Source: Kribbella sp. NBC_00382
Lineage (GTDB): Bacteria > Actinomycetota > Actinomycetes > Propionibacteriales > Kribbellaceae
DNA: 64,000 nucleotides
Reading direction: 5' to 3'
NCBI RefSeq assembly: GCF_036067295.1
Contig: NZ_CP107954.1
Location: 3,782,001-3,846,000, forward strand
A program made the translations under genes and the position numbers. A model generated the notes under the pieces. The model was not told the origin of the DNA. It ran no database searches and saw nothing but the letters and a program-made list of their open reading frames with translations. Numbering within the stretch: the first letter of the stretch is position 1; every line of letters starts with the position of its first letter. This document shows, piece after piece, positions 981 to 5,359 of this stretch.

Positions 981-2555
981 ATGACCCGCCCCAGGTCACG
1001 CATGCTCACTCCTGTTCTCGCCCTCCTCACTCTGCTCGCCGCCTTCGCCGTCGCGGCTCCCGCGACGGCGGCCGGTTCGGTCACCGCGACGTACGCGCTG
1101 ACCGGCGAGTGGAGCGGCAACTTCCAGGCCGCCTACACCGTCACCAACGGCACGGCTTCCACCATCAGCAGCTGGAAGGTCGAGTTCGACCTCGCCACCG
1201 GCACGAACATCACCAGCTCCTGGGATTCCGTCATCACCCGCACCGGCAATCACATCGTCGCCGGGAACGCGAGCTGGAACGCTCCGCTCGCGGCCGGCCA
1301 GTCGGCCACGTTCGGATTCATCGCGAACGGCCCGGCCCGCCCGACGAACTGCCGGGTCAACGGCGGCCTCTGCGAAGGCGGCTCGGGTGACACCAGTGCA
1401 CCGACCGCACCCGGCAATCTCAGGGTCACGGCGACGAGCAACAGCATCGTGGCACTGGCCTGGAACGCCTCCACCGACAACATCGGGGTGACCGGCTACG
1501 ACGTCTACTCCGGTAGCACGCCGGTGATCAGCACGGACGCGACCACCGGCACCGTTGGCGGACTCAACCCAGGGACCGCCTACACCTTCTCGGTGCGTGC
1601 GCACGATGCGGCCGGGAACTCCTCGCCGGCGAGCAACACGGTCACCGCGAGCACCTTGCCCGGCCCGGCCGGGTCACTGGTACCGGTCGCGCCGTACGTC
1701 GACATGGGTGCCTGGCCGACGCCTTCGCTCACCACGATGGCCACCGCCGGAAACCTCCGATCCTTCACCCTCGGATTCATCACCGGAGCCGGCGGCTGCC
1801 ACGCGAGCTGGTTCGGCGCGTACGACCCCCGGACCGGCTGGGGCAAGGATCAGATCGACGCGATCCGGGCCCGTGGCGGCGACGTCAAGATCTCCCTCGG
1901 CGGCGCCGCAGGCAGCGAACTCGCCCAGGTGTGCCCGACACCGCAGGCGACCGCTACCGAGTACCAGGCTGTCGTCGACGCCTACCAGCTGCGCTACCTG
2001 GATATCGACATCGAGGGCGGGGCGGTGGCCGACCCGGTCTCGGTCGCCAGGCGCTCCCAGGCCCTCGCCATCCTGCAGGCCAACCGGCCCGCGCTGAAGA
2101 TCTCGCTCACCCTGCCAGTACTGCCCGAAGGCCTCGACGCGAACGGGTTCGCGACCCTCAAGTCGGCCCGCGACAACGGCGTCAACGTCGACGTGGTGAA
2201 CGTGATGGCCATGGACTACAACCGGTCCTCCGGCAACTACGGGGACTTCGCCGTCCAGGCCGCACAGTCCACGTTCGGTCAGATCAAGTCGCTGTGGCCG
2301 GCCCTCACCGACGCCCAGGCGTGGCTCAAGGTCGGCGTCACGCCGATGCTCGGCAAGAACGACGACGGCGGCACCTTCAACCAGAGCCACTCGACCCAGC
2401 TGGTGAACTTCGCCCGCACCAAGCACCTCGGGATGCTGGCCTTCTGGGAGATGACCCGGGACCGCAACGCCTGCAACGGCTCACTCACGAACTGCACCAA
2501 CGTGCCGCAGACGCCCTACGAGTTCAGCAAGATCTTCGCGGGCTACACCGGGTGA
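981..2555 (+). CDS. Secreted chitinase: CBM2, fibronectin III and GH18 domains
   Basis: Extracellular endochitinase of 524 aa. A Sec signal peptide (about residues 1-30, ending APATAA) is followed by a family 2 carbohydrate-binding module (about 31-130, Trp-rich, closing Cys near its end), a fibronectin type III domain (about 145-225) and a GH18 barrel (about 235-524). The GH18 signature reads LRYLDIDIEGG, giving D341, D343 and the catalytic acid E345. Start ATG follows GGAGG. CBM2 binds crystalline chitin or cellulose while GH18 hydrolyses beta-1,4-GlcNAc linkages with retention. The 3' end overlaps the convergent LanC-like gene by 13 bp. It is related in design to Streptomyces ChiA/ChiC-type enzymes. 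Confidence 0.92.
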   Translation: MTRPRSRMLTPVLALLTLLAAFAVAAPATAAGSVTATYALTGEWSGNFQAAYTVTNGTASTISSWKVEFDLATGTNITSSWDSVITRTGNHIVAGNASWNAPLAAGQSATFGFIANGPARPTNCRVNGGLCEGGSGDTSAPTAPGNLRVTATSNSIVALAWNASTDNIGVTGYDVYSGSTPVISTDATTGTVGGLNPGTAYTFSVRAHDAAGNSSPASNTVTASTLPGPAGSLVPVAPYVDMGAWPTPSLTTMATAGNLRSFTLGFITGAGGCHASWFGAYDPRTGWGKDQIDAIRARGGDVKISLGGAAGSELAQVCPTPQATATEYQAVVDAYQLRYLDIDIEGGAVADPVSVARRSQALAILQANRPALKISLTLPVLPEGLDANGFATLKSARDNGVNVDVVNVMAMDYNRSSGNYGDFAVQAAQSTFGQIKSLWPALTDAQAWLKVGVTPMLGKNDDGGTFNQSHSTQLVNFARTKHLGMLAFWEMTRDRNACNGSLTNCTNVPQTPYEFSKIFAGYTG

Positions 2556-3880
2556 GGTAAGGACGCCCACCAGTTCTCCATCCGGAGGGCGGGGATAGCG
2601 GCACGGCCCTGGTCGACCACCCGGGCCGCCCTGAAGAGGTACGCCGCTATCCCCGCGGCCCCCTGCATCCAGCCGACCCCTGGGGGCAGGAGTGGGACCT
2701 CGTCGCGGTGCTCGATGAACTGCCAGTAGGCGTGCTCGCCGTCGCGGACCGCGCGCTCGACCAGCGTGTCAGCCAGGGACAGTGCGAAGTCCAAGTCGAC
2801 CTGGTCGCCCGTGGACTGCCACGAGTCGAGCAGCACGTCGGCGACTCCCGTAGTACCGCAGCAGCGGCCGTCGTTGTCCCAGAAGCCTGGGTAGAGCCGC
2901 TCTGGGAGTCCAGACGTCCGAACACTGTGGGAGCAGCGCCGCCGCCAGGTCACTGGCGACTCACCGGCTACCTGCTCGACACCGGCGTGCTCCAGTGCGG
3001 CGAAGAGCAGCGACGTCCCGGCTGGGCCGTGGCACCAGTTGTAGGTGACCGGGTCGAGATCCGAGTCCTCTTTGACCGGTACCAGCCTCGGGATCAGCAG
3101 GCCCTTGTCGTCGCCGACCGTGAGAGTTACTAGATGCTCCGCCCCGCCCTGGGCCGCCGCCACCAGATCTGGCAGGCCGAGCTCAGTACCGGCGATGGCT
3201 AGTGTCGCCGCGATCCCGGCGAGTCCGTGCGACAGGTTCGGCATCGATGAGCGCGGCTCGGTCAGGAAGCGCTCCGGTATGAACGGCCAGTCCAGGCCGG
3301 TGGGCCGTGAGACCGCTTCGGCGCGCAGTACCGCCAGTGCCTGCTCTGCGAGCCGGGTAGCGCCCTCTACGCCGCTCCTGCGGGCCCACAGCGCACCCAG
3401 GAGCACCCCGGCGGTACCGAGCGTCATGTCGTTGATCCGCGCGCCTGGCAGGTATCTGTCCGGGTCGACAAAGCTGGACGGCCACCCGTCAGGCTCAGCC
3501 AGCTCCAGCAGCCGCTCAACCGCAGCAGCCGAGCCAGGCATGCCCAACGACGTCAGTACGCCGATGTGGCTGACCAACCCATCAAAGAAGGTGCAGTTGG
3601 TCTCCGCCGCGATGCCAGCGTTGACCTGCTCGGCAATCGCCTCCGCCAGCGTCTGCTCCTCGGCCGTCCAGGCCCGGCTGAGCCTGATCTCAGCCAGCCC
3701 ATGCGCCAGCCCCCCAAGCCCACTGTGCATCCCGTTGTCCCGGTACTCCGGTACCTCCGCCGCCCCCGGCCCACCCACCGACTCAGGAATCCACGGCCCG
3801 TCATTCCACCGAACCTGCCCAAGCACCCACCCCCAGGCAGCCTCACCCACCTCGCGATAGGAGTCCGAGGACCAGGCCAT
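2543..3880 (-). CDS. Stand-alone LanC-like protein with CCG zinc motif
   Basis: Protein of 445 aa with the repeated helical-hairpin Gly motifs of the LanC fold (GLGGLAHGLAE, NLSHGLAGIA, WCHGPAGTS, CCGTTGVADVL, WMQGAAGIAAY). Zinc ligands are predicted at C283 (WCHG) and C340/C341 (CCG). Canonical LanC enzymes use Cys-Cys-His with CHG; a CCG site with three cysteines is known from one clade of LanM cyclases. LanC enzymes add Cys thiols to dehydrated residues in lanthipeptides, but no dehydratase or precursor peptide is nearby, so it may act on another thiol adduct or be regulatory. Its ATG overlaps the DUF6886 stop codon (TGATG), implying translational coupling. Confidence 0.8.
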   Translation of the reverse strand: MAWSSDSYREVGEAAWGWVLGQVRWNDGPWIPESVGGPGAAEVPEYRDNGMHSGLGGLAHGLAEIRLSRAWTAEEQTLAEAIAEQVNAGIAAETNCTFFDGLVSHIGVLTSLGMPGSAAAVERLLELAEPDGWPSSFVDPDRYLPGARINDMTLGTAGVLLGALWARRSGVEGATRLAEQALAVLRAEAVSRPTGLDWPFIPERFLTEPRSSMPNLSHGLAGIAATLAIAGTELGLPDLVAAAQGGAEHLVTLTVGDDKGLLIPRLVPVKEDSDLDPVTYNWCHGPAGTSLLFAALEHAGVEQVAGESPVTWRRRCSHSVRTSGLPERLYPGFWDNDGRCCGTTGVADVLLDSWQSTGDQVDLDFALSLADTLVERAVRDGEHAYWQFIEHRDEVPLLPPGVGWMQGAAGIAAYLFRAARVVDQGRAAIPALRMENWWASLPHPV

Positions 3881-4401
3881 CAGCGGGCGATCGCGTTGCG
3901 CAGCCGGATCCCACTGAACTCGAGCGTGCTCGCGACCACAGCGTCCCAGAACTCGTGCAGCCGGGGCAGTACGCGCAACTGGATACCGGCTTCCTCATGC
4001 AGCTCGAAGAGATCGCCGACCCGCTCAGGCGGACCCAGCGGCGTCACCTCGGTTGTCGCCACGAAAGCCGCCTCAGCAGGCTGGAACGGCTCGGCGGGCA
4101 GCCGGTACGCGTACAACTCGACCGTGCGCATCGCTTCCAGCCAGCCGTACTCGACTGCGTGCACCCGCATGCCACTTCCGTCGCCGATGATGCGGGAGCG
4201 GTCCTCTGATGACGTCCCGGGGCCCACCCATGCCATCGCGCGGGGGCACTGCCGGGGGAACCAGTAGTCGGGCGCACGATCGTGGCCGACGGCCCAGACG
4301 TACTCACCGGTCTTGGTCGACGTGGCGGCGATGTGGGGCCGGAAGATCTGGATCGCCGGATCTTCGGAGAAATGGAGGACCTCACCAGGCCGCGGGCGCA
4401 T
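3880..4401 (-). CDS. DUF6886 family protein
   Basis: A 173 aa soluble protein matching the DUF6886 family by its opening RPGEVLHFSEDP, the YVWAVGHDRAPDYWFPRQCPRA block and the closing EFSGIRLRNA. The function of the family is unknown. The conserved His/Asp/Cys-rich N-terminal half suggests a small enzyme or ligand-binding fold, but this is inference. It is the first gene of a two-gene unit with the LanC-like protein (one-base overlap). No Shine-Dalgarno is visible; a TAGGCT hexamer ends 7 nt before the ATG, so the transcript is probably leaderless. Confidence 0.8.
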   Translation of the reverse strand: MRPRPGEVLHFSEDPAIQIFRPHIAATSTKTGEYVWAVGHDRAPDYWFPRQCPRAMAWVGPGTSSEDRSRIIGDGSGMRVHAVEYGWLEAMRTVELYAYRLPAEPFQPAEAAFVATTEVTPLGPPERVGDLFELHEEAGIQLRVLPRLHEFWDAVVASTLEFSGIRLRNAIAR

Positions 4402-4459: not shown

Positions 4460-5359
4460 TCAGGGGTTGAGGCCGCAGTGGTTGCGCAGCCACGGCATCG
4501 GGTCGATCGGGTCGCCACCGTTCGGGCGGACCTCGAAGTGCAGGTGCGGGCCGGTGGTGTTGCCGGTGACGCCGACCGCGCCGACCTGGTCGCCGGCGTA
4601 CACGGTCTCGCCGACCGAGACGCTGAACTTCGACATGTGGTTGTACCAGGTCTCGGTACCGTCCTCGTGCCGGACCCGGACCTGGCGGCCGTACGGGCCG
4701 GCGAACTCGGCGCTGACCACGACGCCCTTCATCACGCTGCGGATCGGGGTGCCGATCGGGGCGGCGAAGTCGGTGCCGGTGTGGTTGCGGGCCCAGCGGC
4801 CGCCGGCCTGACCGAAGCCGGCGGTGATGTGGTAGCCGGAGATCATCATCTCGCAGCGGGTGGCCGACTCGCGGGCGGTCTTCTCGGCCAGCTCGGCCTT
4901 CGCCTTGGCGCTCGCGAGGGCGCTGGCGCGCTTCACGGTGAGGGCGCGGGTGGCGTCGAGCTTGGCGGCGCGGGCCTTCGAGATCCGGTCGGCCGCGGCC
5001 TGCTTCTTGGTCAGGTCGGCGCCGGTGAGCTCGACCCGGGAGGAGTCACGGGTGGCCAGTTGGCGGCGCTCGATCCGCGCGGTGGTCAGCGCGTTCATCT
5101 GCCCGTCGCCGATGCTCAGCGCGGCGATGTTGACGGCGGAGTTGGCCGACGTCGGGTTCGCGAGCGCGCTGTGGCTGAAGCCGACGGCGCCGGCTGCGGC
5201 CGCAAGTGCTGCGGTCAGTCCTACTACCTGCGTACTGCTCGGGGTGTTACGCCTGGCGACTCGATGCTTGCCACTGTGACGACCTGCGCCGGTCTTGCGC
5301 GCAGCGCTGGCAGCTTTGCCTGGCGTGACGCGGCTGGCCGCGGCACGGTGCTGGGACAC
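4460..5359 (-). CDS. M23 family murein endopeptidase, secreted
   Basis: Cell-wall metallopeptidase of 299 aa. A basic N-terminus with a hydrophobic helix (VVGLTAALAAAAGAVGFSHSALA) serves as signal peptide or anchor, followed by an Ala/Lys-rich coiled-coil stretch (about 95-165) and a C-terminal LytM domain. Zinc ligands are H193 and D197 (HTGTD) and H274, with H272 in HLHFE as catalytic base. M23 enzymes cut peptide cross-bridges in peptidoglycan; the coiled coil resembles that of division-linked NlpD/RipA-type hydrolases. GTG start preceded by AAAGG. The gene sits between pcrA and sucC, its usual place in actinobacteria. It has a leader of roughly 80 nt from a clear sigma-70-type promoter. 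Confidence 0.9.
   Translation of the reverse strand: MSQHRAAASRVTPGKAASAARKTGAGRHSGKHRVARRNTPSSTQVVGLTAALAAAAGAVGFSHSALANPTSANSAVNIAALSIGDGQMNALTTARIERRQLATRDSSRVELTGADLTKKQAAADRISKARAAKLDATRALTVKRASALASAKAKAELAEKTARESATRCEMMISGYHITAGFGQAGGRWARNHTGTDFAAPIGTPIRSVMKGVVVSAEFAGPYGRQVRVRHEDGTETWYNHMSKFSVSVGETVYAGDQVGAVGVTGNTTGPHLHFEVRPNGGDPIDPMPWLRNHCGLNP

Follow-up and report, generated by a model that had tools for sequence, protein, structure and literature searches.

A stand-alone LanC-like protein of the Cys-Cys-Cys type in Kribbella and its DUF6886 neighbour

The LanC-like gene and its locus

The window analysed here is a stretch of 64,000 nucleotides from Kribbella sp. NBC_00382 (contig NZ_CP107954.1, positions 3,782,001 to 3,846,000), a soil actinobacterium with a complete, 8.49-Mb genome. 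It encodes a stand-alone LanC-like protein with a CCG motif, preceded directly by the gene of a DUF6886 protein; the public contigs closest to the window at the LanC gene are Kribbella-type records. Both open reading frames, as well as the one-base overlap between them, had been noted in a preliminary description made from the sequence, and both hold. The LanC-like protein exceeds the curated cut-off of PF05147 (23.2 bits) and belongs to LANC_like, while its neighbour, with a cut-off of 27 bits for PF21820, is a clear member of the DUF6886 family. At the junction, read as GCTGATGGCC, the DUF6886 stop TGA and the LanC start ATG have one base in common. The LanC-like protein carries a single Pfam domain and no fused DUF4135 dehydratase. 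A promoter and terminator scan returned no convincing signal. The genes and the codons relevant to the predicted active site are as follows, with conservation counted in the 33 stand-alone CCG proteins and 31 other LanC domains described below.

2543..3880, minus strand: stand-alone LanC-like protein, CCG (Cys-Cys-Cys) type, 445 aa (PF05147, 58.3 bits; AlphaFold2 (AF2) model with a predicted template-modelling score (pTM) of 0.87; LanC fold by Foldseek)
3880..4401, minus strand: DUF6886 protein, 173 aa, upstream gene (PF21820, 224.4 bits; TGATG overlap with the LanC gene)
3428..3430, minus strand: D151 codon, aligned with an acidic residue conserved in LanC (by motif, NisC Asp141; D in 22/33, E in 11/33 of the clade)
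3227..3229, minus strand: H218 codon, position of the general acid (LanCL1 His219, NisC His212; role from PMC9934072), invariant in 33/33
3032..3034, minus strand: C283 codon, predicted zinc ligand 1, WCHG motif, invariant in the 33 clade members and in 31/31 other LanC domains
3029..3031, minus strand: H284 codon, position of the enolate-oxygen stabiliser His277 of LanCL1 (role from PMC9934072; H in 27/33, N in 6/33)
2858..2863, minus strand: C340-C341 codons, predicted zinc ligands 2 and 3, RCCG motif (CC in all 33 clade members, C-H in 30/31 of the other domains)

Fold, predicted zinc site and the stand-alone CCG clade

The AF2 model of the LanC-like protein, built from 20 orthologues, adopts the alpha,alpha-toroid fold of LanC proteins. 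Foldseek matched it with a probability of 1.00 to CuvL, GCR2, LanCL2, LanCL1, MadC and NisC, at modest TM-scores of about 0.45-0.60; the best stand-alone matches in the PDB were GCR2, LanCL2 and LanCL1, with NisC ranking below them. Residues 283, 284, 340 and 341 are Cys, His, Cys and Cys. Aligned with the 31 other LanC domains, C283 occupies the Cys column of the WC-x-G motif and C340 that of the CHG Cys, while C341 stands in place of the CHG His, the usual zinc ligand. These positions agree with the triad proposed in the preliminary description, and C283, C340 and C341 are the predicted zinc ligands. Three thiolates should raise the nucleophilicity of a zinc-bound thiol, which agrees with the broad substrate use of CCG-type LanM enzymes. 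The same triad is called CCC in published work, where it is tied to promiscuous LanM of the ProcM type (PMC11251773, PMC10027976).

Eukaryotic LanCL proteins invariably have a His after the first zinc Cys, a position that Tyr predominantly occupies in bacterial LanC (PMC9934072). The window protein has His at this position, as in eukaryotic LanCL; ProcM also carries a His there (PMC9934072). The published LanCL1 mechanism has zinc activating the thiol, His219 donating a proton to the alpha carbon, and His277, beside the zinc Cys, holding on to the carbonyl oxygen (PMC9934072). H218 and H284 lie in the places of the acid His and of His277, respectively, as judged by motif and by an alignment among bacterial LanC domains that was compared with the published account, the LanCL sequences themselves lying outside the alignment. 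Ratios of nonsynonymous to synonymous polymorphism (pN/pS) were 0.26-0.55 for LanC and 0.28-0.41 for DUF6886, well below 1, indicating that both proteins are under purifying selection.

Relatives of the window LanC protein in 395 Actinomycetes genomes and in Kribbella and Lentzea share the motif WC[HN]G ... WDNxG[RQL]CCGT. In a phylogenetic tree of 33 such relatives and the 31 other LanC domains (class I LanC and LanM), the 33 stand-alone CCG proteins, mainly actinobacterial, were monophyletic with a support of 0.997. CCG is present in 33/33 members of this clade versus one of the other domains, a LanM (L200); because the clade members were picked by similarity to the window protein, these figures describe conservation within the clade and are not a census of all LanC proteins. 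Three-Cys sites are thus the rule in this group, contrary to the earlier suggestion that isolated LanC proteins seldom have them. Across the divergent members, H218, C283 and the C340-C341 pair are strictly retained, and H284 is replaced only by Asn. The clade comprises two main branches: one, formed by the close relatives of the window protein, carries P-[NG]-x-S-H-G together with WCHG; the other, which includes the Kribbella paralogues L185-L188, carries H-H-x-[SA]-H-G together with WC[HN]G. No paper on a stand-alone CCG clade was found in the part of the literature covered.

Several further observations concern members of this family. A distant relative encoded on a Mesobacillus plasmid (L242, 4440-5768) has CCG and a Tyr at the position of the acid His, and extends the CCG type beyond Actinomycetota. 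In some Kribbella genomes (L185, L186 and L188), a RegX3/SenX3-like two-component pair immediately precedes a second-branch CCG paralogue; three genomes of a single genus (L142, L143 and L145) have second-branch genes that follow a small SRPBCC/polyketide-cyclase-like protein of 146 aa. A record named 'Streptomyces sp. SID13031' (L004 / L024) holds a LanC that is 82% identical and syntenic with Kribbella, and is probably a misnamed Kribbella.

Conservation of this kind bears on whether the LanC fold has been put to another use here, as a zinc scaffold or for hydrolase- or epimerase-like chemistry, or whether the gene is in slow decay. Epimerases and glycosidases, which have the (alpha/alpha) toroid in common with LanC, do appear among the Foldseek matches of the model; the family is patchy, with repeated loss in the genus, and the Mesobacillus relative carries Tyr where the acid His would stand. 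However, the positions relevant to LanC chemistry are kept in all 33 divergent members, as outlined above, the low pN/pS points to constraint, and a Pfam search of the window protein gave no epimerase or glycosidase match. We consider such a change of use rather unlikely, although it fares best among the alternatives.

Lanthipeptide machinery and the DUF6886 gene

The preliminary description had also called the LanC gene stand-alone, with no dehydratase close by, and this was borne out. The immediate flanks encode no LANTHIPEPTIDE machinery: on one side lies an M23 peptidase, on the other a GH18/CBM2 protein, and dehydratases of classes I and II are absent from the vicinity. The GH18-like protein (981-2555), which has CBM2 and FN3 domains, is convergent with lanC and overlaps its 3' end by 13 nt (2543-2555). 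The peptidase is listed here as genomic context only.

4460..5359, minus strand: M23 peptidase, encoded upstream in synteny within the genus (PF01551, 110 bits; its cluster, c7, has a fixed place ahead of the pair in Kribbella loci)

The LanB family PF04738 had no match anywhere in the Kribbella source genome, although positive-control genomes matched. The genome encodes one DUF4135 LanM, about 2.1 Mb from the LanC gene and bearing a CHG cyclase domain of its own, as well as a third, weak LanC-like stretch inside an 859-aa frame. In the LanM (L001, G000 C1:1640136-1642541), Arg replaces the acid His of the cyclase and WCSG stands instead of WC[HY]G, possibly marking an altered cyclase domain. 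Outside Kribbella, 12 of the 13 genomes with a close LanC had neither LanB nor DUF4135 LanM genome-wide (G156, one of the 12, being only 82% complete), while the controls G218, G409 and G400 matched; this distribution argues against classical lanthipeptide cyclisation. The exception, G355, has a LanM 33 kb from its LanC and a partial LanB-like match.

The genes around LanC vary between genera, and no recurrent precursor, dehydratase, exporter, protease or small open reading frame was seen among them. Upstream genes outside the genus include those of an SRPBCC protein (Streptomyces), regulators of the RegX3-SenX3 type, a GNAT protein and an arsenate-reductase-like protein, some of them named from reading the sequence alone; no alternative conserved partner of CCG LanC was found there.

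These surveys also address a cyclase function in an unrecognised pathway for ribosomally synthesized and post-translationally modified peptides (RiPPs), with a precursor and a dehydratase encoded elsewhere or of an unfamiliar type. In the ProcM group, CCG cyclases process many precursors that are scattered (PMC10027976), the source genome does hold an unlinked LanM, and in the work of Walker et al. 1,392 LanC-like proteins went unclassified, with exporters and proteases close to some of them (PMC7268733). The sole LanM of the source genome, however, has its own cyclase domain, and neither the genome-wide absence of LanB and LanM from nearly all other close-clade genomes nor the variable gene neighbourhoods fit such a pathway, which makes it improbable.

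For the DUF6886 gene, the preliminary description had proposed a functional unit with LanC and had held that a lack of co-occurrence beyond close relatives would speak against it. Pairing was examined in 38 Kribbella-type genomes. Both genes are adjacent and apparently intact in 29/38 genomes (in G001, LanC runs off the contig), and the stop/start overlap is retained in 18/22 loci checked, which makes co-transcription likely. The pair occupies a syntenic slot, with lipase and M23 genes upstream and the same gene families downstream, so the 29 adjacencies go back to a single evolutionary event; in this comparison of neighbourhoods, genes were predicted by a simple caller and their start sites are approximate. 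The genes have also been lost independently. In six genomes DUF6886 is intact and LanC is not: three have no LanC (G009, G023 and G031), one has a deletion that spans the zinc site (G006), and in two the gene is apparently broken by a frameshift (G018 and G015). LanC is intact without DUF6886 in two (G008 and G025); in G007, the locus is interrupted by a contig end.

Outside the genus, no DUF6886 gene adjoins the LanC loci of Lentzea and Actinophytocola. Among the genomes of these genera with this LanC, 15/16 hold DUF6886 elsewhere; since DUF6886 may simply be universal in the bacterial family concerned, this genome-level co-occurrence is not evidence either way. Among 394 other Actinomycetes genomes, a close LanC occurs in 13 and DUF6886 in 21 with an overlap of zero, which chance alone would also give at such numbers. 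Plasmid loci of Pantoea and Rhizobium carry DUF6886 without LanC, and the Kribbella and Lentzea sequences form no joint clade in a DUF6886 tree. Pairing beyond close relatives was not found, which is the outcome that the preliminary description had named as refuting the unit, and a general DUF6886-LanC unit is rejected outside the genus. Adjacency, the stop/start overlap, purifying selection on both genes and the Lentzea/Actinophytocola co-residence favour a two-protein system, which is nevertheless unlikely given the single syntenic slot, the persistence of either gene without the other, the zero overlap in the rest of the class, the DUF6886 genes of Pantoea and Rhizobium, and the lack of a joint clade. 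The best reading is that DUF6886 is a genus-specific operon companion of LanC and not a proven partner. The observations of the preliminary description are thus confirmed, while its interpretation is partly supported; its suggested action on electrophilic adducts would be the best reading for LanC by itself.

The DUF6886 protein itself yielded little. An AF2 model from four sequences only had a predicted local distance difference test (pLDDT) score of 33, profile searches against the PDB and Pfam gave nothing besides PF21820, and no paper naming the family was found in the partial literature covered. An ADP-ribosyltransferase-like identity, guessed from the HFSEDP start, could not be supported and was dropped. 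A viral or phage origin was likewise rejected: viral contigs held no relatives of either protein, phage records no DUF6886 relatives, PADLOC returned nothing, and PHROG gave one insignificant LanC match. In a Lentzea subgroup (L236-L241), about 16 residues are missing from the central part of the DUF6886 domain. The PLSDB entry L249, an 11.85-Mb Nonomuraea 'plasmid', is evidently a chromosome.

Relation to known LanC proteins and proposed function

Of the known systems, the eukaryotic proteins LanCL1 and LanCL2, which add glutathione (GSH) to dehydroamino acids in proteins, resemble the window protein in their stand-alone LanC fold, the lack of a dehydratase partner, the His beside the first zinc Cys and the conserved acid His. 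In contrast, their third ligand is His where the bacterial protein has Cys, and identity in the structural alignment is about 16%. Since the third ligand differs, the window protein may work like LanCL in its predicted mechanism but is not filed as LanCL; if the analogy holds, GSH would be replaced by another thiol. LanM enzymes of the ProcM group (class IIa, 'CCC' cyclases; PMC11251773) have the same Cys-Cys-Cys triad by sequence, whereas the window protein has neither their fused DUF4135 dehydratase nor precursor peptides, and the tree, which does not include ProcM itself, places the only sampled CCG LanM apart from its clade. Class I LanC proteins such as NisC and MadC are likewise free-standing proteins of the cyclase fold with the same zinc-site positions, but those sampled have WCYG and CHG in place of WCHG and CCG, and no LanB is encoded near the window gene or in its genome. 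Lacking LanB and a Cys-Cys-His triad, the window protein is not a class I LanC; lacking a dehydratase, it is not a ProcM-type LanM. The CCG clade would fall among the unclassified PF05147 proteins of Walker et al. (2020), which also have no dehydratase nearby; in the part of that study consulted, proteins were not sorted by zinc triad, and no genome-wide test of dehydratase absence appeared.

Tentatively, and with a confidence somewhat short of even, we propose by analogy that LanC acts without DUF6886 or a dehydratase, as a LanCL-like zinc-thiolate enzyme that would join a free thiol to electrophiles such as dehydroamino acids. We infer a mechanism in which zinc, held by C283, C340 and C341, would bind the incoming thiol and activate it, the enolate oxygen would be stabilised by H284, and the alpha carbon would receive its proton from H218, the net result being a thia-Michael addition to dehydroalanine, dehydrobutyrine or a similar electrophile. 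With no class I/II dehydratase to supply a lanthipeptide, intermolecular addition is the simplest reading, and the thiol would most likely come from outside the substrate; mycothiol, free cysteine and protein cysteine are candidates. MshC is encoded in the source genome (646 bits), so mycothiol is probably made and would be the obvious donor. On this proposal, the enzyme would correspond in bacteria to LanCL and would not be a lanthipeptide cyclase.

Several points weigh against this proposal. The close-clade LanC gene is dispensable, being patchy across the class and lost or broken in 6/37 testable Kribbella-type genomes. The dehydratase negatives cover classes I and II, classes III and IV not having been searched separately. 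Synthetases of these two classes also carry LanC domains, but those of class III may match PF05147 only weakly, so that the LanC-domain search does not exclude them. Mycothiol as the donor is a guess, prompted by the mycothiol genes of the genome. Finally, CCG in LanM accompanies the intramolecular cyclisation of many peptides (PMC10027976), so that the substrate may also be a peptide.

More speculatively, and with considerable doubt, the widespread actinobacterial CCG clade as a whole might represent a bacterial LanCL, a zinc-tris-cysteine enzyme that would use mycothiol or another small thiol to quench dehydroalanine and dehydrobutyrine in phosphorylated or damaged proteins, a role unrelated to antibiotics. 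In bacteria, proteins of the LanC fold are as a rule taken for lanthipeptide cyclases. The persistence of a conserved three-Cys clade where the genome has no class I/II dehydratase suggests another role, possibly protein repair or thiol conjugation, which, if true, would provide a bacterial parallel to mammalian LanCL.

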